A DNA stretch of 64,000 nt from Cupriavidus sp. D39. GTDB lineage: Bacteria > Pseudomonadota > Gammaproteobacteria > Burkholderiales > Burkholderiaceae. Shown one piece after another: positions 14,805 to 44,180 of this stretch. Below the pieces are notes generated by a model. It was given only the letters and a program-made list of their open reading frames with translations, searched no databases and had not been told where the DNA came from. The stretch lies in NCBI RefSeq assembly GCF_026627925.1, contig NZ_JAPNLE010000006.1:62001-126000 (forward strand), written 5' to 3'. The position numbers and the translations under genes are program-made. How positions within the stretch are numbered: the stretch's first letter is position 1; each line of letters begins with the position of its first letter.

Positions 14805-16112
14805 ATGACACCAACATCCGCAACGACCGGCAGCGAGATTGCGATCGACTCGCATATCGAAGCGCGCGCAGTGAAGAAGGCCGCCTGGCGCTTTATTCCG
14901 CTGCTGGCGCTTGCCTATTTCTTCAACTACCTCGACCGCACCAGCGTCGGCTTCGCCTCCCTGACCATGAACCAGGACTTGGGCCTGACCGCCACGCAAT
15001 TCGGCTGGGGGGCGGGGATCATGTTCGCCGGGTATTGCGTTTTCGAGGTACCGAGCAACCTGGCCCTCTACCGCTTCGGGGCGCGCCGGTGGATTGCGCG
15101 CATCATGATCACATGGGGGCTGATGGCGGCCGCCACCGCGTTGGCCACCGGGCCAACCAGCTTCTACATCATCCGGCTCCTTCTCGGGATCGGAGAAGCA
15201 GGCTTCTTTCCGGGCGTGATCTTCTTCCTAGCCGTCTGGTTCCCGGCGCGCTACCGCACGCGGGTCCTGGCCTGGTTCACCGTCTCCACGCCGCTGTCCT
15301 CCCTTGTTGGTGGACCGCTTTCGACGTGGCTGCTGCGGATGGATGGCGTACTGGGCTTGGCGGGCTGGAAGTGGATGTTCATCATCGAAGGGCTGCCGGC
15401 CTGCGTGCTCGGCTTCCTGGTGCTGCGTATGCTCGCCGACACGCCAGCCGACGCCAAATGGCTATTGCCGGAGGAGCGGGGTGCGCTGCAGAAGGCGTTC
15501 GAGCGCGAGGGAGCTGCCAGCGGCAAGAAGAAGGATTTCCGCGTCGCCCTCAAAGATCCGCGAGTCTATCTCCTTGCCATGATTTCGTTTGGCTTCACCA
15601 TGGGCTCCTACGGCATCGGGATCTGGCTGCCGCAGATGCTCAAGGCTCACGGCATGAGCGTGATGGAAACCGGCTGGCTTGCCGCACTGCCGTACTTCTT
15701 CGCCACCATCGGACTGCTCTGGTGGGCCAAGCATGTTGACCGCAATGGGCGTCGCGTCGCCAATCTTGCCGTGGCGTTGGCGATTGGCGCGATCGCGCTG
15801 GGCGTCTCGACCTACTTCAAGACACTGACGCCTGCCATGGTCGGCATTACCCTGGCACTGATCGGCACGATCTCCGCGCGCACCATTTTCTTCACGCTGC
15901 CGGCGCGCTTCCTTTCAGGCCAGGCTGCGGCAGGCGGACTCGCGCTGATCAACTCGATCGGCGCCCTGGGCGGCTTCGCCGGCCCCTATCTGGTGGGCTA
16001 CTTGAAGGACAGCTTCGGCACCTTCACTGCGGGCATGCTCGGCCTTGCCATCGTGCTGGCCATCACGACGCTACTCACGCTCTCGCTGTTCGCCCTCATT
16101 CGGGACGAATGA
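14805..16112 (+). CDS. MFS transporter, anion:cation symporter family (module A)
   Basis: Inner-membrane proton-coupled importer of organic anions, 435 residues with about 12 membrane helices. Family marks are YFFNYLDRTSVGFA after helix 1, the loop ALYRFGARRWIARIMITWG, RLLLGIGEAGFFPGVIFFL, and a central hydrophilic loop near residues 205-245. The ATG at 14805 has GGAGA at the right distance and gives exactly the length of the module B homologue, so I prefer it to the ATG at 14793. It begins the module A operon, followed after one base by the amidohydrolase. It is very similar to the transporter at 41736, pointing to the same or a closely related substrate. Confidence 0.9.
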   Translation: MTPTSATTGSEIAIDSHIEARAVKKAAWRFIPLLALAYFFNYLDRTSVGFASLTMNQDLGLTATQFGWGAGIMFAGYCVFEVPSNLALYRFGARRWIARIMITWGLMAAATALATGPTSFYIIRLLLGIGEAGFFPGVIFFLAVWFPARYRTRVLAWFTVSTPLSSLVGGPLSTWLLRMDGVLGLAGWKWMFIIEGLPACVLGFLVLRMLADTPADAKWLLPEERGALQKAFEREGAASGKKKDFRVALKDPRVYLLAMISFGFTMGSYGIGIWLPQMLKAHGMSVMETGWLAALPYFFATIGLLWWAKHVDRNGRRVANLAVALAIGAIALGVSTYFKTLTPAMVGITLALIGTISARTIFFTLPARFLSGQAAAGGLALINSIGALGGFAGPYLVGYLKDSFGTFTAGMLGLAIVLAITTLLTLSLFALIRDE

Positions 16113-16113
16113 C

Positions 16114-17256
16114 ATGAAAGCTGCATTCAATCCCAAACGCCGGCTGCTGCTCGGTGCGGCCGCCGCCTCGCTCGCAAGCCCCGTGCTTGCCGATGCCCCA
16201 CTTACAGCCGGCAAGGAAGGTTCCCATATGACTACCAGCAGCAACTATCTCCCGGTCCGTCCGGAATGGCTCGCCGCAGGCGCCGAAACAGCGCTGGAGC
16301 CGGATCTGCCGATCATTGACGCTCACCATCACTTCTACGAGCGTCCGGGCTGGCTCTACCTGCTAGACGATTATCTGGCCGACGTGCGTGCCTCGGGTCA
16401 CAATTTCGAGGCATCGGTCTACATGCAGGCGCTGACCCGCTACCACACGAAGGGTTCGGTTTTCACGCGCCCGGTCGGAGAGACCGAATACGTTGCCGCT
16501 GTTACCGCGCATCCGACACCCGGCCAGCCCCAGGTTGCTAAAGGCATCATAGGTCACGTCGATCTTCGCCGCGGCGCCGAGGTGCGCGAGGTGCTCGAAG
16601 CCCATCTGGCAGCAGGTGACGGACGCTTTCGCGGCGTCCGTCACCTGACGACCTGGGACGCCGACTCGACACTGGTAAATCCGCTTAGCGCCGCGCCGCA
16701 AGGGCTATTGCTCGCCCCGGCCTACCGCGCGGGTGTGGCACAACTGGCACCGCTCGGCCTGTCGTACGACGCATGGCTCTTCTTTCCCCAACTGCCCCAG
16801 TTGCTTGACCTTGCCAAGGCGAATCCCGATACGAAGATCATCGTCAACCATTGCGGCGGCGTGGTGCGGATCGCCAGCTATGCCGACAAGCGGCCGGAGG
16901 TGTTCGAGCGCTGGTCCCGCTCGATGCGCGAACTGGCGCGCCTGCCGAACGTGTATGTCAAGGTCGGCGGCCTGGGTATGCGCATCAACGGCTTCGATTT
17001 CGAAAAGGCTCCGCAGGCCTCGTCATCGCTCCAACTCGCCGACACATGGAAGCCGTGGATGATGACCTGCATCGAGGCCTTCGGCGCGCAGCGATGCATG
17101 TTTGAGAGCAATTTCCCTGTGGACAAGGGTTCGTACCCGCTTGGCAACGGCTGGAATGCATTCAAGCGCCTAACTGCACAGGCCAGCGCCAGTGAGCGAG
17201 ACGCCCTGTTCCGCGGCACGGCAAGCAAAGTCTACAGGCTGGACCCTCAACGATGA
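16114..17256 (+). CDS. Amidohydrolase-2 family enzyme with Tat-like signal (module A)
   Basis: Metal-dependent TIM-barrel hydrolase of 380 residues, related to 2-pyrone-4,6-dicarboxylate hydrolase-type amidohydrolases, which open lactone or ester bonds. The HxH-like metal motif is IIDAHHHFYERPGW (about residue 70), with a later His in IIVNHCGGVVRIAS and an Asp in FESNFPVDKGSYP. The N terminus carries KRRLLLGAAAASLASPVLA, a twin-arginine-type leader that the module B paralogue also has, so export is likely. A second start at 16228 after AAGGAAGG would give a leaderless form. It sits between the transporter and the receptor gene. Substrate unknown. Confidence 0.85.
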   Translation: MKAAFNPKRRLLLGAAAASLASPVLADAPLTAGKEGSHMTTSSNYLPVRPEWLAAGAETALEPDLPIIDAHHHFYERPGWLYLLDDYLADVRASGHNFEASVYMQALTRYHTKGSVFTRPVGETEYVAAVTAHPTPGQPQVAKGIIGHVDLRRGAEVREVLEAHLAAGDGRFRGVRHLTTWDADSTLVNPLSAAPQGLLLAPAYRAGVAQLAPLGLSYDAWLFFPQLPQLLDLAKANPDTKIIVNHCGGVVRIASYADKRPEVFERWSRSMRELARLPNVYVKVGGLGMRINGFDFEKAPQASSSLQLADTWKPWMMTCIEAFGAQRCMFESNFPVDKGSYPLGNGWNAFKRLTAQASASERDALFRGTASKVYRLDPQR

Positions 17257-17273
17257 CACATCACGGAGACAAC

Positions 17274-18310
17274 ATGACCCACGCAGTTCGCCCCGTTCTT
17301 TCAGCTACGCCGCAAGTTCGCCGTATTTCCTCGCTCACGCAAGCCGGTATGGTGGCAGGCTTGCTACTGCTGGGGACGCTGTTCACCGCTGGCACCACCG
17401 AAGCCAGGGCAGCCGATGCATATCCAAACCAGCCGATTCGACTAATCGTCCCGTTCCCGCCAGCCGGCGGCACGGACGTGTTGTCGAGACTGGTCTTCAA
17501 CAAGATCGGCATGGCCACGCGCTGGAACGTGGTCGTGGAAAACCGAGCGGGCGCCGGCGGCAATATCGGTCTGGATTCGGTGGCTAAGGCGAAGCCGGAT
17601 GGCTATACGCTCGGCATGGGACAAACCGCCAACCTAGCGATCAATCCCACCCTGTATCCCAAGATGCCGTACAACGCGCAGAAGGATTTCACACCGGTGG
17701 CGTTGGTGGCGGCACAGCCAGTCGTGCTCATTGTGCGCGCCGACACACCCTACAAGACGGTTGCCGACCTGGTGGCCGCGGCCAAGTTGAAGCAGTTGTC
17801 GATGGCGTCCGCTGGCACCGGCACGGTGGGACACCTGACAGGAGAAATGTTTGCCCGACGCGTTGGCATCAAGACGCTGCATGTGCCGTACAAGGGTGCC
17901 TCGCCTGCACTGACGGATTTGCTGGGCGGACAGACTGACTTCTATTTCGCCACGCCCCCCATTGCCATGCCCATGATCAAGGCTGGCAAGATCCGGGCGC
18001 TGGCGGTGACTTCGGCCAAGCGCTTACCGCTGCTCCCAGCGGTCCCTACGGTGGCGGAGTCCGGCTATGCTGGCTTTCAGGCGGAGGACTGGAAAGCCTT
18101 AGTTGCCCCCGCTGGCACGCCCCCGACGTCGTGGCGCGCCTGAACGCCGAGGTCAACAAGGCGCTGACGCAGCCGGACACCATCAACAAGCTGCGAGAAG
18201 AAGGCAGTGAGCCGCGCGGCGGTTCACCCAACAGCCTCGACGCCTTTATCCAGAGCGAGAACGCCCGTTGGGGCGACATCGTGCGTCAGTCCGGCGCGCG
18301 CGTCGAATAA
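17274..18310 (+). pseudogene. Bug/TctC-family periplasmic binding protein, one frameshift
   Basis: Solute receptor of the tripartite tricarboxylate (TctC) family, common in Burkholderiales. The signal peptide ends near EARAADAYPN. Family motifs include IRLIVPFPPAGGTDVLSR, VVENRAGAGGNIG, GMGQTANLAINPTLY and VPYKGASPALTDLLGGQ. Near 18119-18124 a C5 run should be C6: the frame runs off into a stop at 18143, while the true tail (VVARLNAEVNKALTQPD to SGARVE) continues in the next frame to TAA at 18308-18310. Start ATG 17274 follows CGGAGA. No TctA/TctB membrane partners are nearby, so it may serve as an orphan sensor or receptor. Confidence 0.85.
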
Positions 18311-18370
18311 ACCATCCAGTCGCGCTACGGCGGCCGCACCGTCGTGGCGCCACGCCATCGGAAGCCAGTC

Positions 18371-19568
18371 ATGCAAAAGCCTTTGCGCAATGTTCGCGTG
18401 CTCGACCTCACCAACGTGCTGGCCGGGCCGTTCTGCTGCCACCAGCTCGCCCATATGGGCGCGGAAGTGATCAAGGTGGAATCGCCCGGGACGGGCGACC
18501 TCGCCCGCCAACTTGGCGCCGACCCGGAACTCAATAAGGCGCTGATGGGCGTCTCGTTCCTGGCGCAGAACCCGGGCAAGCAGTCCATCACCATCAACCT
18601 CAAGCACGCACGCGGCAAGGAAGTCTTCCGCAAGCTGGTGCGCAGCGCTGATGTCCTGGTCGAGAACTTTCGTCCGGGCGTCATGGACCGCCTGGGCCTC
18701 GGCTACGAAACACTGAAGCAGGAGCATCCGCGACTGATCTATTGCGCGATTTCCGGCTTCGGCCAGGACGGCCCGCTGGCCGAATTGCCTGCCTACGACC
18801 AGATCATCCAAGGGATGTCCGGTGTGATGAGCATTACCGGCGATCCCGAGACGGCGCCTTACCGTGTCGGCTACCCCGTCTCCGACACCATCGGGGGCCT
18901 GACTGCCGCATTCGCGGTGGCGGCATCGCTGGCCGATCACCAGCGCATCGAGGGTTACTTCATCGACGTGTCGATGCTGGAAGCCACGCTCGCTACCATG
19001 GGGTGGGTCGTGTCGAACCACCTGATCGCCGGCCGGAGGCCGACCCCGATGGGTAATGAGAACATGACGGCCAGCCCGTCAGGCACGTTCCGCACCGGCG
19101 ACGGCCTGCTCAACATTGCCGCAAACAAGCAGGAACAGTTTGAAGCGGTATGTCAGGTAGTGGGCCGGCCCGAACTGGCCACCGACGTACGCTTCGCGCA
19201 GCGCCAGGCGCGCCTGGCCAACCGCAAGGCGCTGACCGAGGCCCTGGAAGTGGAGCTGGCCAAGAAGGCCGCCGTCGACTGGTGGCCAATGCTCAATGCC
19301 GCCGGTGTGCCGGCGGGTCCGGTGCTGAGCGTTCCCGACACGCTGGCGCATCCCCAGGTGCGTGACCGCGGCATGATCGGCGAATTTGCCAATGCGCCGG
19401 GCGTTGGCCGCAATATCCGGGTAGTGCGCACCGGATTCAAGCTCAACCGCGAGGCGCCCGCAGTAGATTCCCCCGCCCGAACTTGGCCAGCACACACGCG
19501 AGGTGCTGGAAAGCCTGGGCTACAGCGACGCAGATATCAACCAACTTTGCGAGGAGCGTGCCATATGA
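18371..19568 (+). pseudogene. Class III CoA-transferase (CaiB/BaiF), one frameshift (module A)
   Basis: Cytoplasmic family III CoA-transferase that moves CoA between carboxylates through an aspartyl intermediate. N-terminal motif VRVLDLTNVLAGPFCCHQLA and EVIKVESPGTGD; candidate catalytic Asp in LVENFRPGVMDRLGLGY; GMSGVMSITGDPE follows. A C5 run near 19471-19475 should be C6. After it the expected tail (ELGQHTREVLESLGYSDADI, NQLCEERAI) is read in the next frame and ends at TGA 19566-19568, overlapping the next gene (ATGA). It probably activates the acid released by the amidohydrolase before cleavage by the following lyase-like enzyme. Confidence 0.85.
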
Positions 19569-20421
19569 GTGGCATCGACCATTCCCAGAACGCCGGCGAC
19601 ACCGGCATGGACGCCGGCCAGCGCCTCTCGCAGGACTGGTGGCGCACCAGCATCATCGACATGCGTCCCGGGGAGATCCGGTACCGCGGCTATCCCATCG
19701 AACAATTGATCGGCAGCGTGTCGTTCGCGCAGATGATCTGGCTGATGCTGCGCGGAGATTTGCCCAGACCCGCCCAGGGCGAGCTCCTGGATGCGGCGCT
19801 GATGGCCGCGGTCGACCACGGTCCCCAAGCGCCGAGCATCGCCATCCTTGCGGAGTGGGCCTGAATAATGCGATGGCTTCCGCCGTCAACGTCCTGGGCG
19901 ATGTGCATGGCGGCGCGGGTGAGCAGGCGGTGGCGCTCTATGAGGATGTCGCCAAACGTATGAATGCCGGGAATACGATGGAAGACGCAGTCGCAGCAGC
20001 GTTACAACACTATCGCGACCATCATGGCAAGTTCGTCTCCGGGTTCGGCCACCGTTTCCATCCGCTTGATCCACGAGCGCCACGCCTGCTGGCATTGGTG
20101 GATCAAGCGGCGGCCAGGGGCGTAGTCAGCGGGCGTTTTGCAACAATCGCACGGGCCATCGAACACGCGCTCGCTGCCGGGCGCAGCAAGCCGATCCCAA
20201 TGAATATCGACGGGGCCACCGCCGTGATATACGCGGAACTTGGTTTCCCTGCGCCACTGGCCCGCGGTCTGTTCTGCTTGTCGCGCTCCGTAGGCATCCT
20301 TGCGCATGCCTGGGAGCAGACCTGCCAGGGCGGGCGCAACAAGGGGCCGATCCCCCGTCAGTTCCTTTGGACCTACGACGGCACACCGCAACGAGATGTC
20401 CCCGAATCGCCAATCCGCTGA
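19565..20421 (+). pseudogene. Citrate synthase/citryl-CoA lyase-like protein, short deletion
   Basis: Citrate-synthase-fold protein of the short type, often annotated citryl-CoA lyase, which cleaves or forms a carbon-carbon bond on an acyl-CoA. The N part (DWWRTSIIDMRPGEIRYRGY, PIEQLIGSVSFAQMIWLML) stops at 19862. The rest (CGVGLNNAMASAVNVLGDVH, GKFVSGFGHRFHPLDPRAPR, MNIDGATAVIYAELGFP) is in another frame to 20421. Against the usual family order (SIAIARMxVTCGVG) about 16 bases are missing near 19850, unlike the single-base slips elsewhere. The active-site His (VHGGAG, GHRFHP) regions are present. It follows the CoA-transferase with a four-base overlap. Confidence 0.8.
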
Positions 20422-20726
20422 GCGCGCAAATAGCTCCGTAGATCGATTCGCCCACGCTCGAAAAGAGCGACGCGCATTGCCAAGCCATAATGAAGGACAC
20501 AATGAAGTTGATGCGTTTCATCGCCGTCATTGCGGTCGTATGCCGTAGAACCAAGCAATTCTGTCACTCCGGAATCTGCCTGGAAGCTGCGCCGTATATA
20601 GAGGTCCGGCCGGTGAATTGACAATATTGCTTGCACTCCCCGCGAAGCGAAGTCGTCAATTCGTCCGGATTAATTTCGTCAATTGGCATCCTAGACTTCG
20701 AATCCCGCTCGTAAGGCATTGATCTT
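20422..20726. other. Intergenic stretch, possible left end of the TnsAB element
   Basis: No gene seen. GTCAATT occurs three times close together: in inverse orientation near 20620, and directly near 20663 and 20680. TGTCACTCCGG is near 20565. Tn7-like elements carry repeated transposase-binding sites at their ends, so this may be the left end; no matching right end is found. Confidence 0.35.
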
Positions 20727-23340: not shown

Positions 23341-23365
23341 CCCTGACATTCGCGTGGGAGTCATC

Positions 23366-23665: not shown

Positions 23666-23667
23666 AT

Positions 23668-24723: not shown

Positions 24724-24730
24724 AGGCAGC

Positions 24731-25317: not shown

Positions 25318-25389
25318 TCGGCCAGCCACCCTTACGCCGTCGGGCGGCCGAAGCAGGTCGGTAGCCGACTCTGGCGGGAGCCTGCTGAC

Positions 25390-28783: not shown

Positions 28784-29560
28784 TCAGTTAAAACGCGCTA
28801 CCCAACCTAGCGGCAGGGCTTGCATCAGCACGCCCACAAATGCCCACGGCCAGCCAGGAACACAAGCCTCATCTGGCTCGCGCTCGATGGCCCTGACCAT
28901 GTATTGGCAGCCGAGCTCCTCCGGAATTTCAAACGGCAACTTCTTCGCTGCTGCGTTGAGTTCCGTACGGATATAACCGGGGAACAGGGTGCTGACCTTT
29001 ATCGGTGTGTTCAGTAGTTCGGCGCGAATGCCTTCAGCCAGATGGGCCACTGCTGCCTTGCTTGCTGCATAGGCGGTCAGGTGCCTGGGCAGGCCGCGTT
29101 TCGCGCTCATGGACGAGATAACCACCAGATGACCGCCGCTCTGGCTTCGGAAGATCTCCACAGCCGCTTCGCATTGGGCAAGGGCTGCTATGAAGTTGGT
29201 CTCGGCGGTGCGCAGATTGGTGGCGAAATGGCCAGTACCAATGCGTCGTCCTTCGCCAATGCCGGCATTGACAATGATCCGATCCAGCCGGCCAAACATC
29301 TGCACAAACTCGCCAAATTTGGCGAAAACCTTCTCGTGATCATTGACATCAAGGGCACTGACCTCGACTCGCACGCCGAATGCTCTGCATAGCTCGCCCT
29401 TCAGCTCGTGCAGACGTTCGGTACGCCGCGCACACAGCGCAAGGTTGTAGCCGCGTGCAGCAAATTGCCGCGCCATTCCAGCGCCTAGTCCTGAGCTGGC
29501 CCCGGTAATCAGGACGGTCCTGGATTGATTTGTCATTTCGATCTCGTCTTGCCCGATCAT
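28784..29560 (-). CDS. Short-chain dehydrogenase/reductase
   Basis: NAD(P)-dependent oxidoreductase of 258 residues. It has the glycine-rich nucleotide motif TVLITGASSGLGAGMARQFA, NAG in RIIVNAGIGEG, the catalytic Ser in VVISSMSAKRGLP, and the Tyr-Lys pair in YAASKAAV. The start at 29560 directly follows the phosphatase stop (TGAATG), which suits coupled translation; a second start at 29536 (MTNQSRTVLIT) is also possible. It ends the leftward operon driven from about 31.8 kb. Similar SDRs accompany acyl-CoA dehydrogenase/APH gene sets in proteobacteria; the substrate is unknown. Confidence 0.88.
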   Translation of the reverse strand: MIGQDEIEMTNQSRTVLITGASSGLGAGMARQFAARGYNLALCARRTERLHELKGELCRAFGVRVEVSALDVNDHEKVFAKFGEFVQMFGRLDRIIVNAGIGEGRRIGTGHFATNLRTAETNFIAALAQCEAAVEIFRSQSGGHLVVISSMSAKRGLPRHLTAYAASKAAVAHLAEGIRAELLNTPIKVSTLFPGYIRTELNAAAKKLPFEIPEELGCQYMVRAIEREPDEACVPGWPWAFVGVLMQALPLGWVARFN

Positions 29561-30256
29561 TCAGCGCCAGGTCAGCAGATAACTGCGATCGCCGTGAAAG
29601 TGTGAGTACTCGTTCAACGTCATGAGCCTGCGCTTACGCTGGCTGCTCACCTGCAATGACGTCATGCTGGCATTGGCCAGTGTCCAGTTGACCTGCATCG
29701 CGGCTGCATCGCCAAGGCCAAGCAAGGCCTGGACAATCACCGCGATCACCCCACCCGATGTGACCACCAGATGCGTCTCATCCGGCCCGGCCAGCTTCAG
29801 CACCTGCTCCAGTGCAGCCTTGCAGCGCGCCTGGAACTGGCGCCAGGGCTCGTCATAGTCCCCATCCGCAGTGCCACCGTACCAGCGCGCCAGTGCCGCA
29901 CCGAACATACCGAAGAATGCATCGCGTGGATTCTCCGCGGCGGCGAGCTCGCTCATCATCACCTCATGGTCGTTGTAGCGAGGCTCATAGCGGACAATCA
30001 CCTGTTGGTGGTCGAATTCGTCAAAACCTGCGAGACAGTGCTGCTCAAGGTCCCAGTCGGCGCCCTGGAGCAATCCCTTTGCCGTTTGCCGGTGACGCTG
30101 AAGCCTTCCGGACCAGAGGGCATCGATAGTTTCGCCGCGCTCGCGCAGTACCTTGCCGAGGTGCTCCGCCTGCTCGTGCCCCTTGTCGGAAAGACAGTCA
30201 TAGTCTGTCGCTCCGAATGAGGCCTGACTATGGCGTACGAGAATGACGCGAGTCAT
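29561..30256 (-). CDS. Histidine phosphatase (phosphoglycerate-mutase-like)
   Basis: Protein of 231 residues from the histidine phosphatase superfamily. It has the phospho-His motif VILVRHSQASFG near residue 8, where the usual RHG is RHS, and a late His in TSGGVIAVIVQALL, where the conserved H of this region is less clear (HLVVTSGG holds a His). The ATG at 30256 overlaps the neighbouring kinase stop region by a few bases. It may dephosphorylate the product of the APH-like kinase encoded just before it (inference). Confidence 0.8.
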   Translation of the reverse strand: MTRVILVRHSQASFGATDYDCLSDKGHEQAEHLGKVLRERGETIDALWSGRLQRHRQTAKGLLQGADWDLEQHCLAGFDEFDHQQVIVRYEPRYNDHEVMMSELAAAENPRDAFFGMFGAALARWYGGTADGDYDEPWRQFQARCKAALEQVLKLAGPDETHLVVTSGGVIAVIVQALLGLGDAAAMQVNWTLANASMTSLQVSSQRKRRLMTLNEYSHFHGDRSYLLTWR

Positions 30257-30258
30257 GG

Positions 30259-31325
30259 TCAAGCCCTCCCGCTTCGACGGATCAGACGCCGACAGCGTCG
30301 ATGGAGCGCATATACCATCAGCCAGAAATGCCTGAATGCCGGATTCTTCGTTTGCTTGTGGTGATAGCGGTAGTAGATCTGCTGAATGATGACTGCCAGC
30401 CGGAAGAGTCCAAAGACCTCGTAGAAGACCCAGTTGTCGGTCTTGAGGCCAGTCTTGCCGAAGTAGTAGTCGACGACTTCTCTTCGGCTCAGCATGCCCG
30501 GCAAGTGCGTCGGTTGACGTCGCGCCGCTCGCATCATGAAGTTGTCATCGGCTTGCACCCAATAGGCCAGCATGGTGCCAAGGTCCATCAGAGGATCGCC
30601 CAGCGTGGCAAGCTCCCAGTCCAGCACACCGATCACCTGCGTGGGTTCCTGAGCGGACAGGACGACGTTGTCGAAGCGCCAGTCGTTATGGATGATGCAG
30701 GTTCGGCTGTCCTCCGGAGTGTTTGTCCGCAGCCACGCGCGCACGCTGCGAAAGCGTGGCACGTTCCAGGTAAGACTCTTCTCGTAGCGTGCGTCCCAGC
30801 CATCGACCTGACGCTTGCAGTAGCCCGCTCCCTTACCCAGCGAATCCAGGCCAGACGCCTGGTAATCCGTCTGGTGCAGAGCGATGAGCTGGTCCAGCAC
30901 GTTCAGGCATAGTTCGCGCACACGCGGCGCCGTGAAATCGAGGTCACGGGACAGGTTCGCGCGGGGGATGATTCCTGCAATACGCTCCATGACATAGAAG
31001 TCGCACCCGATCACTGAAGGGTCCTGGCACAGGGCGACAGTGTCGGGCACCATCGGGTATGCCGGCTTCAGATGCTTTTGAATGAAGTACTCGCGAGCCA
31101 TGTCGTGCGCACCGGCCGCCTTGGTGCCAGCTGGCGGACGCCGAAGAATGAGATCGCGGTTGCGGTATTCCAGCCGGTAGGTCCAATTGGAAGCACCACC
31201 GGCATACTGCGTGATAGTCGGCTGCCCCAAGAGGCTGCGGTCCTGCGCTTTGAGCCATCGATCTACTGCCGCTATGTCGAGCTCTTCCCCGGACGAACCG
31301 CTCCCGCTTGATCTATTGCTGTCAT
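30259..31325 (-). pseudogene. APH/ACAD10-like phosphotransferase, one frameshift
   Basis: Kinase-like protein of about 355 residues in the aminoglycoside phosphotransferase fold, of the group found beside acyl-CoA dehydrogenases. The N lobe has YAGGASNWTYRLEYRNRDLI, then YVMERIAG, the catalytic loop IIHNDWRFDNVVLS and the metal Asp in VLDWELATLGDPLMDLG. The best start is ATG 31325 after GGAGAAG (MTAIDQAGAVRPG). A C4 run on the + strand at 31287-31290 should be five, which joins this start to EELDIAAVDRWLKAQDRSLL and the rest. Without the extra base the gene would begin internally. Probably intact in the organism. Confidence 0.8.
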
Positions 31326-33778: not shown

Positions 33779-33806
33779 CGAACCACGATCAAAACGAGGT
33801 GACGCC

Positions 33807-35042: not shown

Positions 35043-35123
35043 CCGGCCAGACAACGCTGCAAGCGCTGATGTCGAGACCATTCCGACCCCATGCCCAACT
35101 TAAGCACCCAAAGTATCGTCAAA

Positions 35124-36109: not shown

Positions 36110-36135
36110 TCCTTTCTTGTCGTCGCGTCGACGCC

Positions 36136-36168
36136 GGTAGCCCCACACAGGCATGTCTGGGGGCTACC
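36136..36168 (+). terminator. Stem-loop after the decarboxylase-like gene
   Basis: GGTAGCCCC (36136-36144) pairs with GGGGCTACC (36160-36168), and inner bases extend the stem (CAG with CTG). GCCTTTATCC follows. A likely terminator of the old yellow enzyme operon. Confidence 0.6.
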
Positions 36169-36288
36169 GCCTTTATCCTTGTCATCCGAGCAGTGGGTGC
36201 CGGTGGCCCCGCCGGTCGCTGTGAAGCGTGGCCCCGCTCACGGCAACAGGGCTCCCCGCTGCGAGCCAGGCATCGCCAATGCAAGCCT

Positions 36289-36876: not shown

Positions 36877-36952
36877 GCAGTCATTCATGAACTTGCTCCT
36901 GATCGTGCACACATGGCGGTTCGACATGGCGAAGCGGCCATTCGACTCTCAC

Positions 36953-37768
36953 TCAGCTAATACGCCCACCTTTCTGATCATGGCTCACCGTGGACGTCTC
37001 AGAAAACGAGGCAATGCTTGCATCGTACCTGGCGCCTCTTCCGCCTAGCCCTGCCGTTGCCTGTTTGGCTCCATCCAGCAAAGCCTTAACTGCAACGTCC
37101 ATCACGGACGGAGCATCGATTCTTCCTTTAGGTCCGGACAGAGTGAGCGCTCCTACAAAGTCACCGACTGCGTCGAATACCGGCACCGACGCTGAAGCCG
37201 TTTCAGGATCGCGTTCGCCGTAGGAGACTGCCCAAAGTTGGTTACGCACCTCTCTCCAACGCTCGTCCAGCGGTTCGGTGAAGGCGAGCAAAACTTTACC
37301 TGACGCTCCCTTTCCAATATCGAACTCCTCGCCGACTCGTATCGATACGCGTACGCTCCTCGACGGCTCCACGCGAAACAGGACTAGTCGTCGATCCCCG
37401 TGCCTCACGTAGAAGGACGCAGTTTCGCCGAGGTCTCGGCTGAGTTGCTGCAGTATTGGCTCGACAACCGGACCAACCGGGAACGATCGCTGATAGAGGC
37501 TCGCGAGGCGCAACGGTTGATGACCGATAGCGTACTGACCGTCGCTTAGCTTACGTATAAAGCCGCCGTGTTCCAAAGCCCCGAGCAAGCGTAGTACCGT
37601 GCTCTTATACAAGCCGGTCCGCCGCGACAACTCGGTCAGCGTCAGGCGATCGTCGGTCGGTCCGAAGGCGTTGAGAATCGAGAAGGCTCGGTCCAATACG
37701 GCGACGCCGCTAGATGACTCAGGCGCGTCAACAGGCGGCTCGGCCGCTGCGGCTTTTTGGGTAGGCAC
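36953..37768 (-). CDS. IclR-family transcriptional regulator 3
   Basis: Regulator of 271 residues, closely similar to IclR 2. It has a winged helix (SGVAVLDRAFSILNAFGPTD, SRRTGLYKSTVLRLLGALEH) and effector domain (SFYVRHGDRRLVLFRVEPSR, GKGASGKVLLAF, SYGERDPETASASVPVF). The start is GTG 37768 (MPTQKAAAAEPP). Seven bases upstream of this codon an IS630 element is inserted, which cuts the gene off from GGAGG and the three operator palindromes now at 39.25-39.39 kb. It was originally divergent from the HMG-CoA-lyase-like gene. Expression must now depend on a start provided by the element. Confidence 0.88.
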   Translation of the reverse strand: MPTQKAAAAEPPVDAPESSSGVAVLDRAFSILNAFGPTDDRLTLTELSRRTGLYKSTVLRLLGALEHGGFIRKLSDGQYAIGHQPLRLASLYQRSFPVGPVVEPILQQLSRDLGETASFYVRHGDRRLVLFRVEPSRSVRVSIRVGEEFDIGKGASGKVLLAFTEPLDERWREVRNQLWAVSYGERDPETASASVPVFDAVGDFVGALTLSGPKGRIDAPSVMDVAVKALLDGAKQATAGLGGRGARYDASIASFSETSTVSHDQKGGRIS

Positions 37769-37827
37769 GCTAGTACAACATCCCGTAAATAGGTTGAATA
37801 ATTAATTGGCTCGGATATCATGGCGGG

Positions 37828-38910
37828 ATGAGTCGAGGCCGCCATGCAACGCCAGTGAAGCTGGCGAAGAAAGAAAGACAGGAACTGCTATCGCTAATCG
37901 AACGCAAGACGGCTGCGCAGCGAGATGTGATGCGGGCGCGAATCGCGTTGTGGGCCCACGAGGGCCACTCCAATACGGTCATTGCGCGGGAACTGGGTGT
38001 GTCGGTGCAAACGGTCTGCCTGTGGCGCAAGCGGATTGCCCAGCAAGGTGCCCAAGGCATTCGCGAGGGCGAGCGCAGTGGCCGTCCGCCACGCATCACG
38101 CACGAGGAGCGGCTACAGGTCATCGCACTGGCGTGTGAAACGCAGGAACCTGAGGGACGGGTCACGCCCACGCTCGACGAGATTGTGGCGCGCGCCGTGG
38201 AGCGCGGCGTCGTCGGGCAGATCAGCCGCAGCCAGGTGCAGCGCATTCTGCAGGCCGGCGACGTGCGTCCACACCGGGTCCGGCAATGGCTACACAGCCC
38301 AGATCCGGCCTTTCGCGAGAAGGTCAACGGAATTTGCAAGCTGTACCGTAAGGCGCCTCGAAACGCGGTGGTGCTCAGTATCGACGAGAAGACTGGCATT
38401 CAGGCCATCGAGCGCAAGTACCCGGGACGCGCGCCCGCGCCAGGGCGGCTGCGTCGTCGTGAGTTTGAATATATTCGTCACGGCACCCAGGCGTTGATTG
38501 CTGCGTTAGACGTGCATACCGGGCAGGTGCTGGCAGAATGCCGCGAGCGGCGCACCCAGGACGATCTGGTGGCCTTCATGGAGCGCGTGGCAAGCGCGTA
38601 CCCAGACAAACAGGTGCACGTCGTCTGGGACAACCTGAACACGCATCGCGCCCACGCGGTCTGGCAGGCGTTCAACGCGCGGCACGATGGGCGGTTTCAC
38701 TTCCACTTCACGCCATTGCACGCGAGTTGGGTCAATCAGATCGAACTCTGGTTTGCCCGCTACACGCGCCGAGTGCTGCGCCATGCGAGTCACATCAGCA
38801 CCGCGCATCTGCGCGAGCGCACCGAGCAGTTTGTCCGCGCGCACAATCAGACGGCACGCCCGTTCAAATGGACTTTCCGGGGCTATCCGCTGCAAACCGG
38901 CGCATCGTAA
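37828..38910 (+). CDS. IS630-family transposase
   Basis: DDE transposase of 360 residues. Two N-terminal helix-turn-helix units (GHSNTVIARELGVSVQTVCL; then ITHEERLQVIALACE) precede the catalytic core: Asp in VVLSIDEKTGIQA, Asp in HVVWDNLNTHRAH and Glu in SWVNQIELWFARYTRR. The frame is intact and the ends are well matched, so the element may still be active. Confidence 0.92.
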   Translation: MSRGRHATPVKLAKKERQELLSLIERKTAAQRDVMRARIALWAHEGHSNTVIARELGVSVQTVCLWRKRIAQQGAQGIREGERSGRPPRITHEERLQVIALACETQEPEGRVTPTLDEIVARAVERGVVGQISRSQVQRILQAGDVRPHRVRQWLHSPDPAFREKVNGICKLYRKAPRNAVVLSIDEKTGIQAIERKYPGRAPAPGRLRRREFEYIRHGTQALIAALDVHTGQVLAECRERRTQDDLVAFMERVASAYPDKQVHVVWDNLNTHRAHAVWQAFNARHDGRFHFHFTPLHASWVNQIELWFARYTRRVLRHASHISTAHLRERTEQFVRAHNQTARPFKWTFRGYPLQTGAS

Positions 38911-38922
38911 TCGAGGATCGAC

Positions 38923-39222
38923 ATGTCAGCTTTACCCGCCAAACATTACGCTGTCGAACTGCAGCGGCAACTACGCACCCTGCTCGGCCACGAGCAGATC
39001 GTCACGCAAGCCTACGGGCGTCATCTGCTGATCAAACGTCTGGACGACGAGGAGCCGACGGTGGTGGCTCGGCTGACCGAGCTCAGCCGCAATTGTTATG
39101 GCGCCGCCTTTCGTAGCCATAGTGGGCGTTGGGAACCTCTGCCAGGCGCCGGTACACTCGACGAGATGGCCAAGGTGATCGTCACCCTACTGGAGCCATA
39201 TTTGCAGCCCGATAATTATTAA
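38923..39222 (+). CDS. Small IS630 passenger protein (99 residues)
   Basis: Begins MSALPAKHYAVELQRQLRTL 12 bases after the transposase stop and ends just before the right inverted repeat. Segment RLDDEEPTVVARLTELSRNC and a C-terminal TLDEMAKVIVTLLEPYLQ look like a compact folded protein. No function known to me; a role in transposition control is possible. Confidence 0.6.
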   Translation: MSALPAKHYAVELQRQLRTLLGHEQIVTQAYGRHLLIKRLDDEEPTVVARLTELSRNCYGAAFRSHSGRWEPLPGAGTLDEMAKVIVTLLEPYLQPDNY

Positions 39223-39276
39223 AGCTATTTGCGGGATGCTGTACTAGTCCTCCAAATGATATGCCTCCACTGTACA

Positions 39277-39293
39277 GTTCTGCGTAACAGAAC
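39277..39293. promoter_or_regulatory. 17-bp IclR-type operator H1 (module B)
   Basis: GTTCTGCGTAACAGAAC, a perfect GTTCT-N7-AGAAC palindrome and the best match of all sites. It lies 111 bases upstream of the HMG-CoA-lyase-like gene. Confidence 0.68.
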
Positions 39294-39350
39294 TCAAGTT
39301 CTAAAATCGTGGGTTAACCCTCTTAACGGTGACCGTCGGTTGGCTCTATA

Positions 39351-39367
39351 GTTCTTTCTAGTAGAGC
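39351..39367. promoter_or_regulatory. 17-bp IclR-type operator H2 (module B)
   Basis: GTTCTTTCTAGTAGAGC, one mismatch in the right arm. It is centred near where a promoter for the following gene would lie. Confidence 0.55.
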
Positions 39368-39370
39368 TAA

Positions 39371-39387
39371 GATCTGTGTAACAGAAC
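39371..39387. promoter_or_regulatory. 17-bp IclR-type operator H3 (module B)
   Basis: GATCTGTGTAACAGAAC, one mismatch in the left arm; it ends 17 bases before the GTG start. Its start is 20 bases after that of H2, so proteins bound at H2 and H3 would sit on nearly the same face of the helix (two turns). Confidence 0.55.
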
Positions 39388-39404
39388 TTACCGAAGGAGC
39401 GATC

Positions 39405-40382
39405 GTGAGTACACCCAGAATTTTGATTAGCGAGGTCGGCCCGCGTGACGGCCTGCAAAGCATCAAGAGCGTCATGCCTACCGAGGCCAAGTTGCTTTGG
39501 ATTTCCGCGCTGGCTGCTGCGGGCTTGAAGGAGATTGAAGTCGGCTCCTTCGTGCCGCCCAAGCTCCTGCCGCAAATGGCTGACATACGCGAGGTCGTGG
39601 CTCACGCTCTCTCGATCCCCGGCCTTCACGTTGCGGTCCTCGCACCTAACTTGCGTGGCTGTCAAGGTGCGTTCGAAGCGGGCGTCCACAAGGTCACGTT
39701 GCCGGTCTCGGTCACCGACGAACATTCCACCGCCAACATCCGTAAAACCACGGCGCAGATGATCGAAGAAGTTCGCAACGTGGTCGGGCTGCGCAACGAG
39801 CGCTTTCCGAACGTGCAGATCGAAGCAGGAGTGTCAGTCGCGTTCGGTTGCACGATCTCCGGCACGGTGACCGATGACCAGACCATGCGTATGTGCTTGG
39901 CGATGGCTGAGTGCGGCGTGGACGAGGTTGGCCTGTCTGATACGAGCGGCTACGCCAATCCGGCGCAGGTTCGTCGGCTGTTTCGTCGCTTGCAATCCGA
40001 AGTGGGCCGAAAAGCGGGCGGCGCCCATTTTCACAACACGCGCGGCCAAGGATTGGCGAACGTGGTCGCCGCACTCGACGCCGGCGTGACAACAATCGAT
40101 GCGAGCCAGGCAGGCCTCGGCGGCTGCCCGTACGCACCTGGAGCGACGGGCAACATCGTTACCGAAGACCTCGCCTTTTTGCTGGAAGCAATGGGCTACG
40201 ACACGGGCGTGGATATCGACAAGCTCGTTGCGGCTCGGGCGATTCTGGCTGAAGCGCTGCCGGGCGAGGCGCTGTACGGGCATGTACAGGACGCCGGATT
40301 GCCTAAGGGTTTCACATATGCAGATGGGCGCGCGCCAAGCGCGCCTCAACCGGGAGGCTGTTTGTTGGGAGTTGCGCAATGA
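39405..40382 (+). CDS. HMG-CoA lyase-like enzyme (module B)
   Basis: DRE-TIM-type lyase of 325 residues that splits a 3-hydroxy-3-methylacyl-CoA or similar acyl-CoA. Motifs: ISEVGPRDGLQSIKSVMPTE (metal Asp and Arg), KEIEVGSFVPPKLLPQMAD, VDEVGLSDTSGYANPAQV, AHFHNTRGQGLANVVAALDA (metal His pair) and GLGGCPYAPGATGNIVTEDL with the catalytic Cys. Start GTG 39405 follows AAGGAG. Its stop overlaps the CoA-transferase start (ATGA). In module A this place is taken by a citrate-synthase-like protein, so both probably do the final C-C cleavage. Confidence 0.9.
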   Translation: MSTPRILISEVGPRDGLQSIKSVMPTEAKLLWISALAAAGLKEIEVGSFVPPKLLPQMADIREVVAHALSIPGLHVAVLAPNLRGCQGAFEAGVHKVTLPVSVTDEHSTANIRKTTAQMIEEVRNVVGLRNERFPNVQIEAGVSVAFGCTISGTVTDDQTMRMCLAMAECGVDEVGLSDTSGYANPAQVRRLFRRLQSEVGRKAGGAHFHNTRGQGLANVVAALDAGVTTIDASQAGLGGCPYAPGATGNIVTEDLAFLLEAMGYDTGVDIDKLVAARAILAEALPGEALYGHVQDAGLPKGFTYADGRAPSAPQPGGCLLGVAQ

Positions 40383-41653
40383 GCGAAGTTCAAGCGAATC
40401 AAAGCCTGCCGTACAACGGCGTGCGTGTCGTCGAGATGACGCACATGGTGATGGGACCGACGTGTGGGATGGTGTTGGCGGACCTGGGCGCTGAAGTCAT
40501 CAAAGTTGAGCCCATCGCGGGTGACAGCACACGATCGCTGCGAGGCTCGGGAGCGGGCTTTTTCAGCACATTCAATCGCAACAAAAAGAGCATTGCTGTC
40601 GATGTGAAAGACCCGCGCGGCTGCGAGATCGTGCACAAGCTGGTTGCCGGCGCCGACGTGTTCAGTGAAAACTTCAAGAGCGGGACGGTAGACAAGCTGG
40701 GGCTGAGCTACGCGACGCTGTCGAAGTTCAACCCCCGTCTGGTCTACGTTTCGCACAAGGGCTTCTTGCCTGGTCCTTACGATCATCGCACCGCGCTCGA
40801 CGAGGTTGTGCAGATGATGGGCGGCCTCGCTTACATGACCGGCCCTGAAGGCCGCCCCTTGCGAGCCGGGACGAGTGTCAACGACATTATGGGCGGTATG
40901 TTCGGTGCCATTGGTGCAATGGCCGCGCTCGCCCAACGTGAACGCACTGGACGCGGGCAGGAGGTTCAGAGCGCCTTGTTCGAGAACAACATTTTCCTCG
41001 TCGCGCAGCACATGATGCAGTTCGCCGTGACCGGGAAGCCTGCGGCCCCGATGCCGGGTCGTATCTCGGCGTGGGCTGTCTACGACGTATTCTCGGTCAA
41101 GGATGGCGAGCAGATATTTCTGGCGGTTGTCTCCGATACTCAATGGGCACTCTTCTGTGACGCCTTCGGATTATCGGAACTGAAGAGCGACGAGCGCATC
41201 GCCACCAACAATCAACGCGTGCAGGCACGGGACTGGTTGCTGCCGCAGCTTCGCGCTCACTTGGAAGCCTTCACTGCGGCCGAAATCGGCGCGGTTTTCG
41301 AGCGCTGCGGGCTTCCGTACGCGCCTATTACGAAACCCCACGACCTATTCGACGACCCGCATCTGCTTTCCACCGGCGGCCTCGCAGACGTCACGTTGCC
41401 GCCCGACGCGAGTGGGGCCGGCCAGCCAGTGACCACCAAGACAGCGCTGCTGCCGCTGACACTCGGCGGAGAACGCCTGCGATTGCGCGCCGCACCGCCT
41501 TCACTGGGTCAAGACACGCAATCCCTGCTCATGCAGCTCGGTTACTCGCATGAAGACCTCCGACAGTTGACCGAGGCAGGCGTAGTCCGGTGCCAAGCCT
41601 CACAGACAGGGGGCGCGACAAGCGCCTCGGCCAACGAACTGGCGAGTGCCTAA
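40379..41653 (+). CDS. Class III CoA-transferase (CaiB/BaiF) (module B)
   Basis: Family III CoA-transferase of 424 residues. N-terminal motif GVRVVEMTHMVMGPTCGMVL and EVIKVEPIAGDSTRSLRG; candidate catalytic Asp in VFSENFKSGTVDKLGLSYAT; then QMMGGLAYMTGPEGRPLRAG and SVNDIMGGMFGAIGAMAAL. It would form the acyl-CoA substrate of the lyase encoded upstream, taking CoA from a donor acyl-CoA. It is not a close copy of the module A transferase, although both belong to the same family. Confidence 0.9.
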   Translation: MSEVQANQSLPYNGVRVVEMTHMVMGPTCGMVLADLGAEVIKVEPIAGDSTRSLRGSGAGFFSTFNRNKKSIAVDVKDPRGCEIVHKLVAGADVFSENFKSGTVDKLGLSYATLSKFNPRLVYVSHKGFLPGPYDHRTALDEVVQMMGGLAYMTGPEGRPLRAGTSVNDIMGGMFGAIGAMAALAQRERTGRGQEVQSALFENNIFLVAQHMMQFAVTGKPAAPMPGRISAWAVYDVFSVKDGEQIFLAVVSDTQWALFCDAFGLSELKSDERIATNNQRVQARDWLLPQLRAHLEAFTAAEIGAVFERCGLPYAPITKPHDLFDDPHLLSTGGLADVTLPPDASGAGQPVTTKTALLPLTLGGERLRLRAAPPSLGQDTQSLLMQLGYSHEDLRQLTEAGVVRCQASQTGGATSASANELASA

Positions 41654-41735
41654 CCTCAAGAGCACTAACGGATTGCAGTGCCGGGCGAGCCTGCACGGCT
41701 CAGTTCGGCCAGTGATTCGAAGGAGACGACAAACC

Positions 41736-43043
41736 ATGACATCCATATCCTCCAATCTGGCGGGCGAGAAGTCCGTCGATTCGACGCTTGAACAGCAGGC
41801 GGTTAGGAAAGCCGCGTGGCGCTTCATCCCACTTCTCGCGCTCGCGTACTTTTTCAACTACCTTGATCGGACCAGCGTCGGATTTGCAGCGCTGACCATG
41901 AACCGCGACCTTGGACTGACTGCGACTCAGTTTGGCTGGGGGGCAGGCATCATGTTCGCTGGATACTGCTTGTGCGAAGTTCCGAGCAACCTGGCGCTGT
42001 ATCGCTTCGGCGCACGGCGTTGGCTCGCGCGCATCATGATCACTTGGGGCTTTTTCGCCGCCGCCACGGCGCTCGCTGTTGGACCGACCAGCTTCTATGT
42101 AATTCGCTTGCTGCTCGGCATAGGCGAAGCCGGCTTCTTTCCCGGCGTAATTTTCTTCCTCGCGATCTGGTTTCCTGCGAACTATCGCACGCGAGTGCTC
42201 GCATGGTTCACCGTTTCGACGCCGCTCTCCTCGCTTATCGGTGGACCGCTTTCGACGTGGCTGCTCAAGATGGACGGGTTCCTCAGCCTCGCGGGCTGGA
42301 AATGGATGTTCATCGTCGAAGGTCTGCCGGCATGCGTGCTCGGCGTCCTCGTACTGAAGCTTCTTGCTGACAGGCCTGCCGATGCTAAGTGGCTTTCGCC
42401 GGAGGAGCGACAAGCGTTGCAAAGCGCCTTTGATCGTGAAGGTGCAGCGAGTGGCAAGAAGAAAGACTTCGCCGCTGCATTGAAAGACGTGCGTGTGTAC
42501 GTCCTCGCGATGATTTCCTTCGGCTTCACGATGGGCTCCTACGGTATCGGAATCTGGCTGCCGCAGATCCTGAAGAGCCACGGGATGACCGTCAGTCAGA
42601 CCGGATGGGTGTCCGCAATACCTTACTTCTTCGCCACCATCGCTCTGCTTTGGTGGGCTAAGCGGGTTGATCGCCGCGGCGGTCACATTGCGAACTTGGC
42701 CGCATGTATGTTCATAGGTGCGATCGCACTGGGCGTGTCGACCTACTTCAACCAATTGGTTCCGGCCATGGTCGGCATCACGCTGGCGTTGATCGGCACC
42801 ATCGCGGGCCGCACCATCTTTTTCACATTGCCGGCTCGGTTCCTTTCCGGACAAGCAGCTGCCGGTGGCCTCGCGCTCATCAACTCGATCGGTGCGTTGG
42901 GCGGCTTCGCGGGTCCGTACCTCGTCGGCTATCTGAAGGACAGCTTCGGTACCTACACGGCCGGAATGCTCGGATTGTCGGTGGTGCTCGCCATCACAAC
43001 CTTGCTGACTTTGTCTCTTTACGCTTTTAACAAGGGAAAATAA
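41736..43043 (+). CDS. MFS transporter, anion:cation symporter family (module B)
   Basis: Inner-membrane importer of 435 residues, about 12 helices, very similar along its whole length to the module A transporter (same YFFNYLDRTSVGFA, GARRW-ARIMITWG, GIGEAGFFPGVIFFLA and FTLPARFLSGQAAAGGLALI segments). Start ATG 41736 follows AAGGAGA. Only a few bases separate it from the amidohydrolase gene. Conserved length and sequence suggest the same substrate class, presumably an organic acid or lactone. Confidence 0.92.
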   Translation: MTSISSNLAGEKSVDSTLEQQAVRKAAWRFIPLLALAYFFNYLDRTSVGFAALTMNRDLGLTATQFGWGAGIMFAGYCLCEVPSNLALYRFGARRWLARIMITWGFFAAATALAVGPTSFYVIRLLLGIGEAGFFPGVIFFLAIWFPANYRTRVLAWFTVSTPLSSLIGGPLSTWLLKMDGFLSLAGWKWMFIVEGLPACVLGVLVLKLLADRPADAKWLSPEERQALQSAFDREGAASGKKKDFAAALKDVRVYVLAMISFGFTMGSYGIGIWLPQILKSHGMTVSQTGWVSAIPYFFATIALLWWAKRVDRRGGHIANLAACMFIGAIALGVSTYFNQLVPAMVGITLALIGTIAGRTIFFTLPARFLSGQAAAGGLALINSIGALGGFAGPYLVGYLKDSFGTYTAGMLGLSVVLAITTLLTLSLYAFNKGK

Positions 43044-43046
43044 AAG

Positions 43047-44180
43047 TTGAAATCAAGACATTCACCCCGGCGCCGACAGCTTCTTAGTGCGGCCGCAGCA
43101 TCGATCGTGATTCCTGCCCTTGCTCAACACAAGGTATTTGCAAAAGAGGAAGTCCACAGCATGAGTACAACCAGCAACTATCTTCCGGTTCGGGCGGAAT
43201 GGCTTGCCTCCAACACCGAGGCGGCACTCGAGCCCGACATGCCTATCATCGACGCGCATCACCATTTCTACGAGCGACCCGGCTGGATATACATGCTGGA
43301 CCAATACCTCGAAGACGCCCGGTCGGGACATAACGTCATTGCATCGGTGTATATGCAGGCGCTCACACGGTACCGTATGGATGGTCCTGAATTCATGCGT
43401 CCGATAGGCGAAATCGACTACGTGACGACCGTTACCGCATCACTGCAGAAGGCCAAACCGAAGGTGGCGAGTGGTATGGTCGGATACGTAGATCTTCGTC
43501 GAGGGGCCGAGGTGCGGGAAGTCCTCGAAGCTGAGCTCAAAGCTGGAGACGGACGCTTTCGTGGCGTGCGGCACCTGGTGACTTGGGATGCCGATACGAC
43601 GCTGGCGAATCCACTGACTGCGGCTCCTCGCGGGCTGCTACTCGACCGGAGCTATCGGGAGGGAGTGGCTCAATTGGCGCCGCTAGGCCTGTCCTACGAT
43701 GCGTGGCTGTTCTTCCCGCAACTGCCGGAGCTTCTCGATCTGGCAAAAGCATTCCCCAACACGCCGATCATCATCAATCACTGCGGCGGGGTGCTGCGTA
43801 TTGCTTCCTATCAAGATCGTCGAAAGGAAGTCTTCGAAACTTGGTCTCGCTCGATGCGCGAGCTATCGCAACTGCCTAATATCTACGTCAAAGTCGGCGG
43901 ACTAGGCATGCGCATCAATGGCTTTGACTTTGAAAAGGAAGCTCGACCGCCGTCGTCGGTCGAACTCGCCGAAACGTGGAAGCCGTGGATGGAATCGTGC
44001 ATTGAAATGTTCGGTGCAGATCGCTGCATGTTCGAAAGCAACTTCCCTGTGGACAAAGGCTCCTACCCGTATAGCAACGGCTGGAATGCCTTCAAGCGTT
44101 TGACAGCTAACGCAAGTCCGACTGAACGAGAGACCCTCTTTCGAGGCACAGTGAACAAGGTGTACCGCTTGGGGCTGTGA
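43047..44180 (+). CDS. Amidohydrolase-2 family enzyme with Tat-like signal (module B)
   Basis: Paralogue of the module A amidohydrolase, 377 residues. Metal motif IIDAHHHFYERPGW, then VDLRRGAEVREVLEAELKAG, FRGVRHLVTWDAD, IIINHCGGVLRIASYQDR and FESNFPVDKGSYP. It starts at TTG 43047 or at the internal ATG 43161 (MSTTSNYLPVR). The longer form has SPRRRQLLSAAAASIVIPAL, again a twin-arginine-type leader. Two divergent paralogues both keeping this leader argues for real export. It is the last gene of module B; 240 bases later comes the IS4 element. Confidence 0.86.
   Translation: MKSRHSPRRRQLLSAAAASIVIPALAQHKVFAKEEVHSMSTTSNYLPVRAEWLASNTEAALEPDMPIIDAHHHFYERPGWIYMLDQYLEDARSGHNVIASVYMQALTRYRMDGPEFMRPIGEIDYVTTVTASLQKAKPKVASGMVGYVDLRRGAEVREVLEAELKAGDGRFRGVRHLVTWDADTTLANPLTAAPRGLLLDRSYREGVAQLAPLGLSYDAWLFFPQLPELLDLAKAFPNTPIIINHCGGVLRIASYQDRRKEVFETWSRSMRELSQLPNIYVKVGGLGMRINGFDFEKEARPPSSVELAETWKPWMESCIEMFGADRCMFESNFPVDKGSYPYSNGWNAFKRLTANASPTERETLFRGTVNKVYRLGL

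Follow-up and report, generated by a model that had tools for sequence, protein, structure and literature searches.

The window analysed here is a stretch of 64,000 nucleotides (positions 62001-126000 of contig C6) in the 7.74 Mb draft genome, 11 contigs in all, of Cupriavidus sp. D39. It carries two gene sets, which we call modules A and B. Module A runs IclR regulator (minus strand), MFS transporter, amidohydrolase (AMH), TctC (a Bug receptor), class III CoA-transferase (CaiB_A) and a citryl-CoA-lyase-like protein (CitL). Module B runs IclR (minus strand), a transposase gene, a 3-hydroxy-3-methylglutaryl-CoA (HMG-CoA)-lyase-like protein (HMGL), a second class III CoA-transferase (CaiB_B), MFS and AMH, and all five of its operon and regulator genes are open (Table 1). 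Across related genomes, the unit exchanged between operons of this kind is the pair of CoA-transferase and lyase, a cassette that comes in the versions CaiB_A-CitL and HMGL-CaiB_B.

Gene content of the two modules

Profile matches confirm the IclR, MFS, Amidohydro_2 and CoA-transferase III genes that had been predicted from the letters of the window in both modules, as well as the difference between the lyases, which are of the citryl-CoA-lyase type (citrate synthase fold) in A and of the HMGL type in B. The original prediction described the two transporters and the two amidohydrolases as near-identical. This was too strong: the MFS proteins are 82% and the AMH proteins 72% identical, with 78% for IclR over its open part and 32% for the CoA-transferases. 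All the genes listed in that prediction are present, but the TctC gene between the AMH and the CoA-transferase of A was overlooked, and the ranges given there for the modules leave the regulators outside, at 13.9-14.6 kb and 36.95-37.77 kb. It is fair to say that a real pattern was recognized, but without the decay of A, TctC, the co-exchange of the CoA-transferase or the operators common to both cassettes.

CitL matches NF004864, the citryl-CoA lyase profile, with 328.7 bits in its C-terminal part (cut-off 261) and 135.2 bits in its N-terminal part; the window's copy is divided over two frames, and six relatives are free of stops. Where the lyase of CitL operons carries a name among the best 120 matches listed, it is called "citryl-CoA lyase" or "citrate synthase." HMGL_B passes the NF004283 cut-off, a family match from which we do not claim HMG-CoA lyase activity. 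Both CoA-transferases match PF02515 over nearly the full profile and reach no NCBIfam substrate subfamily, the best being SucGlutTfsCaiB (295 and 243 bits, against a cut-off of 750).

CoA-transferase and lyase as one exchanged unit

The loci compared here come mainly from a survey of the family Burkholderiaceae, in which 60 of 398 genomes had a close AMH; 59 loci besides the window were fetched, with G768 excluded. It was used instead of an order-wide survey with AMH_B, in which 16 of 399 genomes, the window's among them, passed E <= 1e-100 and the other 15 had matches of 46-51% identity. All tallies exclude short duplicate loci (L001-L013, L105-L148, and L209-L228), and some records fetched twice from different collections remain in them.

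CitL adjoins CaiB_A in all 31 loci and HMGL adjoins CaiB_B in all 75, with no mixed pair, in a tally made before loci L258-L284 were included; by a similar filter these are 30 and 66 distinct sequences. It is on this strict pairing that we identify the pair as the exchanged unit. Paired loci often share descent and independent events are few, the AMH tree forcing at least two changes of cassette type. The earlier idea of a modular route with interchangeable lyases is therefore upheld in that a common backbone of IclR, AMH, cassette and TctC carries either cassette, but not in that the lyase is exchanged alone, as the two enzymes travel together.

The backbone is seen in a Comamonadaceae plasmid with the order IclR-AMH-HMGL-CaiB-TctC, set against C. 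necator C39 and Cupriavidus sp. KK10 with IclR-AMH-TctC-CaiB-CitL-TctC, where TctC stands both before and after the cassette. The same backbone thus holds HMGL-CaiB_B in the former and CaiB_A-CitL in the latter. A plasmid record of Methylobacterium nodulans has DASS-CaiB-CitL-AMH-LysR-MFS, and a DASS carrier adjoins the CaiB_A, CitL and AMH genes in Bradyrhizobium as well as Methylobacterium. Plasmid records lacking gene tables were read by tblastn only.

Among the 59 Burkholderiaceae loci, 52 have the HMGL cassette (L149 is cut by a contig end, and L166, L183 and L198 each have one gene in two pieces), four have the CitL cassette, all in the window's genus, and three are degraded. One of the four, L200 in genome G019, has two stops in its AMH. 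Only the window's genome, among the examined loci, has AMH beside both cassettes. In a separate set made up of the best 80 named AMH loci, 12 carry HMGL, CaiB_B, MFS and IclR (HMGL in two pieces in one of them), one is a remnant, and two, from Bradyrhizobium, carry CaiB_A, CitL and MFS; the other 65 have neither lyase within the available DNA, and 10 of these show a distant CoA-transferase match. The expectation that AMH, MFS and CoA-transferase genes come with a lyase consequently holds in Burkholderiaceae (56 of 59 loci with a cassette), but not in the 65 of 80 just mentioned or in any of 27 loci from other classes.

Regulators and operators

Two copies of the palindrome GTTCTGNNNNACAGAAC precede HMGL in module B. 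Both match on both strands, giving four matches in the window against 0.07 expected. The IclR promoters of relatives often have three copies, spaced by about 84 and 20 bases. With up to three mismatches allowed, this triple is found in 42 of 57 type B promoters, 4 of 5 type A promoters with AMH and 6 of 7 type A promoters without AMH; for a spaced double, 80-105 bases apart, the counts are 54/57, 5/5 and 7/7. None of 3600 first-order Markov resamples contained a triple or double. Since motif and spacing were derived from the tallied loci themselves, this control argues against chance, not for function. Rows with an IclR match under 58% or a late start were dropped, and the tally includes 5 of the 6 Cupriavidus type A loci with AMH.

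In comparisons between cassette types within Burkholderiaceae, identity to the window copies is 68-77% for AMH and 67-79% for IclR. Both cassettes would, on this evidence, answer to closely related IclR proteins acting on one operator layout, which makes one shared inducer and one shared acid likely. The proposal that the lyase is chosen to match the side chain fits poorly here, as the same regulator type and layout serve both cassettes, also in operons devoid of AMH. The inducer would then be the acid or a later product and not the AMH substrate, because operons with and without AMH have a common type of regulator.

In relatives of module B, IclR and HMGL are directly divergent with no gene between them. 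In the window, the operators persist beside HMGL on the far side of the transposase gene (presumably of IS630 type) from IclR_B, whose gene has probably ceased to be their neighbour.

Probable decay of module A

The IclR, TctC, CaiB_A and CitL genes of module A each continue in another frame when all three frames are read. Alignment to six relatives per region gives one frame-changing deletion of 1-16 bases in each broken gene, and none of the six relatives shares any of them. In six relatives the CitL, CaiB_A and TctC genes are free of stops. L096, L200 and L206 carry private indels of their own elsewhere in the alignment. The operators of A survive as two sites with 4 and 3 mismatches to the palindrome, at a spacing of 83 as in relatives. 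We read A as a decaying operon because of these four private lesions together with the degenerate operators, and to judge by its frames it is probably dead except for MFS and AMH.

The frameshifts might instead be sequencing or assembly errors, leaving A as a working second copy. In favour of this, the assembly is a draft of 11 contigs; against it, all four lesions fall in A whereas MFS_A, AMH_A and the five genes of B are open, one lesion is a loss of 16 bases, and the operators of A are degenerate too. We consider this explanation very improbable.

Module A is best described as a decayed, patchwork copy of the genus' own CitL operon, with an MFS-AMH pair that resembles the Burkholderia type. 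IclR_A is 78-87% identical to five Cupriavidus-type regulators and CaiB_A 75-93% identical to Cupriavidus homologues; MFS_A is 79-84% identical to Burkholderia-type MFS, and an MFS match is absent from the six Cupriavidus type A loci examined. IclR_B, for its part, is 72-83% identical to Burkholderia-type regulators. Trees of AMH and MFS place the module A copies in open forks and AMH_A is equally near Cupriavidus and Burkholderia copies, which points to no single donor of the MFS-AMH pair. Duplication of one module within the genome was considered and rejected: AMH_A and AMH_B are no closer to one another than to copies of other species, and the lyases of the two cassettes are unrelated.

A search of the window's genome at E <= 1e-60 gave no further CitL match. 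Of 60 genomes of the genus, 58 have CitL, though only in part in the window's genome and G772; four of the matches have one internal stop each. In G772 (L247, contig C82) the CitL match lies in two pieces, making this a second genome of the genus in which CitL may have been lost.

Table 1. Positions of the features of modules A and B within the window
Feature	Position	Strand	Evidence and remarks
IclR_A regulator, open part	13915..14598	-	HTH_IclR and IclR_C matches; C-terminus in another frame (broken)
Degenerate remains of module A operator array	14592..14691	.	Sites at 14592 and 14675
MFS_A transporter, intact	14793..16112	+	MFS_1 7.5e-45
AMH_A amidohydrolase, intact	16114..17256	+	Amidohydro_2 5.5e-37; open reading frame opens 16045, probable start 16114
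TctC_A (Bug receptor), broken	17253..18330, end approximate	+	PF03401 9.4e-65 on 17253-18143; C-terminal part in other frame
CaiB_A class III CoA-transferase, broken near C-terminus	18371..19568, end approximate	+	PF02515 1.1e-115
CitL, citrate synthase fold, broken over two frames	19565..20421, start approximate	+	NF004864
IclR_B regulator, intact	36953..37768	-	Pfam
Transposase gene between IclR_B and its operators	37828..38910	+	DDE_3 2.8e-24
Operator palindrome 1, module B	39276..39294	.	0 mismatches
Operator palindrome 2, module B	39370..39388	.	1 mismatch; 94 bases from palindrome 1
HMGL_B, intact	39405..40382	+	NF004283 288.5 bits, cut-off 246; nearest solved sequence 1ydo
CaiB_B class III CoA-transferase, intact	40379..41653	+	PF02515 1.3e-109; nearest solved sequences 4ed9, 9br6
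MFS_B transporter, intact	41736..43043	+	MFS_1 4.1e-43; open reading frame opens 41646, probable start 41736
AMH_B amidohydrolase, COG3618 fold, intact	43047..44180	+	

The amidohydrolase is an optional addition

Cassettes occur without AMH and AMH occurs without either lyase, and for this reason we regard AMH as an optional add-on to the cassette operon. A close AMH is present in few genomes of the genus, compared with CitL in nearly all. Twenty CitL loci, taken from 60 CitL places and picked outside known AMH operons, all lack AMH and have a core of CaiB_A-CitL with or without TctC and IclR. On the HMGL side, 54 of 398 genomes have CaiB_B at 79% identity or above, and 53 of these also have AMH; in the remaining one, G678, HMGL-CaiB_B stands with neither AMH nor MFS matched nearby. 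Four small-genome relatives and G014 have more distant HMGL-CaiB operons that include TctC and lack AMH; in one of the four, L253, the TctC gene is on the opposite strand and IclR gave no match. In a small-genome relative (L250), a CitE-like lyase gene (HpcH_HpaI, 3334-4209), of a third lyase fold, lies beside the IclR of an HMGL-CaiB-TctC operon. In G014 (L254) an open reading frame that looks gluconolactonase-like by eye lies between an AMH-CitL operon and the HMGL-CaiB-TctC operon.

The 27 loci from other classes, likely Alphaproteobacteria and some on short contigs, have an AMH 52-67% identical to one from Bradyrhizobium; none has CitL or HMGL nearby (E <= 1e-10, over 60 bits), and two, L264 and L281, have a distant CoA-transferase match (38% and 34%). 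Their conserved neighbours, labelled by eye, are an ABC transporter, an aminopeptidase-like and an MBL-like reading frame, which offer no clue to the substrate. The window's genome has a third AMH paralogue, 46% identical to AMH_B (L208, G000:C6:507740-508600), flanked on either side by TctC matches; neither a CoA-transferase nor a lyase was matched there. The AMH locus of Pantoea sp. A4 (L027) includes a regulator that looks LysR-type by eye and an Ldh_2 gene, of the malate/lactate dehydrogenase family.

Two arginines followed by a hydrophobic stretch are present in both window copies, as the predicted Tat leader requires, but only 10 of 14 aligned AMH proteins have such a leader, and two of the four without it are named Cupriavidus proteins. 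With leaderless relatives in existence, hydrolysis outside the cytoplasm cannot be taken as a general feature. By fold, AMH is nearest to COG3618 members. A profile alignment places Asn332 of AMH_B, a residue found in all 33 aligned members, where 4dlf has Asp (S-D-W-P-V); Asn at this position of AMH_B (43047-44180) is unusual for a hydrolase of the amidohydrolase superfamily.

A proposed pathway and its alternatives

From the gene content, pairing, operator sequences and broken frames described above we infer the chemistry, the substrate, the regulation and the direction of replacement. Both cassettes most likely act on one acid, in an inducible operon that serves a single kind of hydroxy acid, a view that we hold with only slightly more confidence than doubt; HMG, citramalate or a citrate-like acid are candidate substrates. 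AMH, where present, would free this acid from a precursor that masks it in lactone-like or other form, and uptake would proceed via MFS, the TctC receptor or, in Bradyrhizobium and Methylobacterium, the DASS carrier. The class III CoA-transferase would load the acid with CoA, and the lyase would cleave the resulting 3-hydroxyacyl-CoA, yielding an acyl-CoA plus a keto compound to feed central metabolism. The same acid would be handled by CaiB_A-CitL, with its citrate synthase fold, and by HMGL-CaiB_B, with its TIM barrel, and the window's genome would hold an intact HMGL cassette in B beside the decayed copy of a CitL operon in A. It is the placing of both cassettes under close IclR relatives and one operator layout that makes the same acid most likely.

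The original prediction had the lyases handle different acids, each following the side chain of its substrate. In keeping with this, the folds and the CoA-transferases differ between cassettes, CitL retains the His, Asp and Arg positions of the citryl-CoA lyase 6hxp and HMGL_B is nearest to HMG-CoA lyases; G014 also bears both kinds of cassette close together. The common operator layout, and the identities of AMH and IclR between cassette types given above, are difficult to accommodate, and we think different acids unlikely. A narrower version of the one-acid proposal concerns a prochiral acid such as 3-hydroxy-3-methylglutarate or a citrate-like compound: the CoA-transferase would pick the carboxyl and so set the handedness, and each lyase fold would take one hand. 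Exchange in pairs would then be forced, which is the strict linkage with no mixed pair that is observed, and the window would be a half-finished replacement under an unchanged regulator type. We put this forward as a speculation, and a rather doubtful one.

Several observations weigh against a single acid and the chemistry proposed for it. HMGL_B has G-L-S-D-T where 1ydo, 2ftp and 2cw6 have S-L-G-D-T, and G-L-S-D recurs in 73 of 74 HMGL loci, in 65 of these as G-L-S-D-T-S-G-Y-A-N; please note that S-L-G-D-T-I-G as a marker motif was our own choice and that 6nds, also titled HMG-CoA lyase, has T-L-A-D-T. Operator triple and double are both absent from the sole Comamonadaceae promoter and from both window promoters tested from the IclR side. 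The Cupriavidus-type genome G014 holds its AMH-CitL operon and HMGL-CaiB-TctC set within about 10 kb, so the cassettes are not mutually exclusive. In Pantoea sp. A4, AMH and MFS occur with the Ldh_2 gene (12086-13138), neither a CoA-transferase nor a lyase being matched within 10 kb, and for this set a tertiary hydroxy acid would not account. Finally, Asn in place of the Asp of 4dlf makes hydrolysis by AMH itself uncertain. Rather than a lactonase, AMH could be another enzyme of the superfamily that forms the hydroxy acid, for instance by hydration or decarboxylation; its invariant Asn and the presence of decarboxylases and the LigJ hydratase among its fold matches speak for this, and we rate it as possible, if on the unlikely side.

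If the one-acid proposal is true, these operons are a natural experiment that keeps the regulator, the operators and the hydrolase and swaps the enzyme pair, as one block, for unrelated folds. A CoA-transferase and lyase operon carried by most of the genus would also gain a function, and the case cautions that the lyase fold alone is unsafe for naming substrates.

Comparison with known systems

The succinate-hydroxymethylglutarate CoA-transferase SUGCT (9br6) and the mitochondrial HMG-CoA lyase 2cw6, both human proteins, belong to the same class III CoA-transferase family and the same TIM-barrel lyase family as the enzymes of module B. Their genes are not known to form an operon, and the lyases differ at the S-L-G-D-T motif noted above. 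Citryl-CoA lyase 6hxp is matched over almost its full length by an intact CitL relative, and the family retains the His, Asp and Arg motifs; CitL differs in standing beside a class III CoA-transferase in all 31 loci. AMH shares its fold with the COG3618 lactonases 4dlf and LigI (4d8l) at 24% and 17% identity; it differs in having Asn332 where 4dlf carries Asp, and in the leader peptide of 10 of the 14 aligned members.

Two unrelated lyase folds for one acyl-CoA have a precedent in Mtb Rv2498c and P. aeruginosa PA2011, which cleave opposite enantiomers of HMG-CoA (PMC6689899). Rv2498c is CitE-like and not of the citrate synthase fold, and the available part of that article describes no linked exchange of a CoA-transferase. 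Mimosa root exudate induces an HMGL-CaiB pair in P. phymatum and C. taiwanensis (PMC5789663). This pair resembles ours in that genes for an HMG-CoA lyase and a CaiB/BaiF CoA-transferase share an operon and have neighbouring locus numbers, and differs in that its BURPHK2 locus tags are unlike those of plasmid NC_010627, which bears the P. phymatum AMH; the word amidohydrolase does not occur in the text of the article. An incomplete literature check found no title on the present operon, and we make no claim that it is unpublished.

Genes around the modules

Several transposase genes lie in and around the modules, of the IS110 family at 11.4-13.6 kb, Tn3 at 23.7-24.7 kb and DDE_3 at 37.8-38.9 kb. 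Between the modules, at 28784-31230 on the minus strand, genes of the SDR, histidine phosphatase and phosphotransferase families follow one another, as identified by Pfam.

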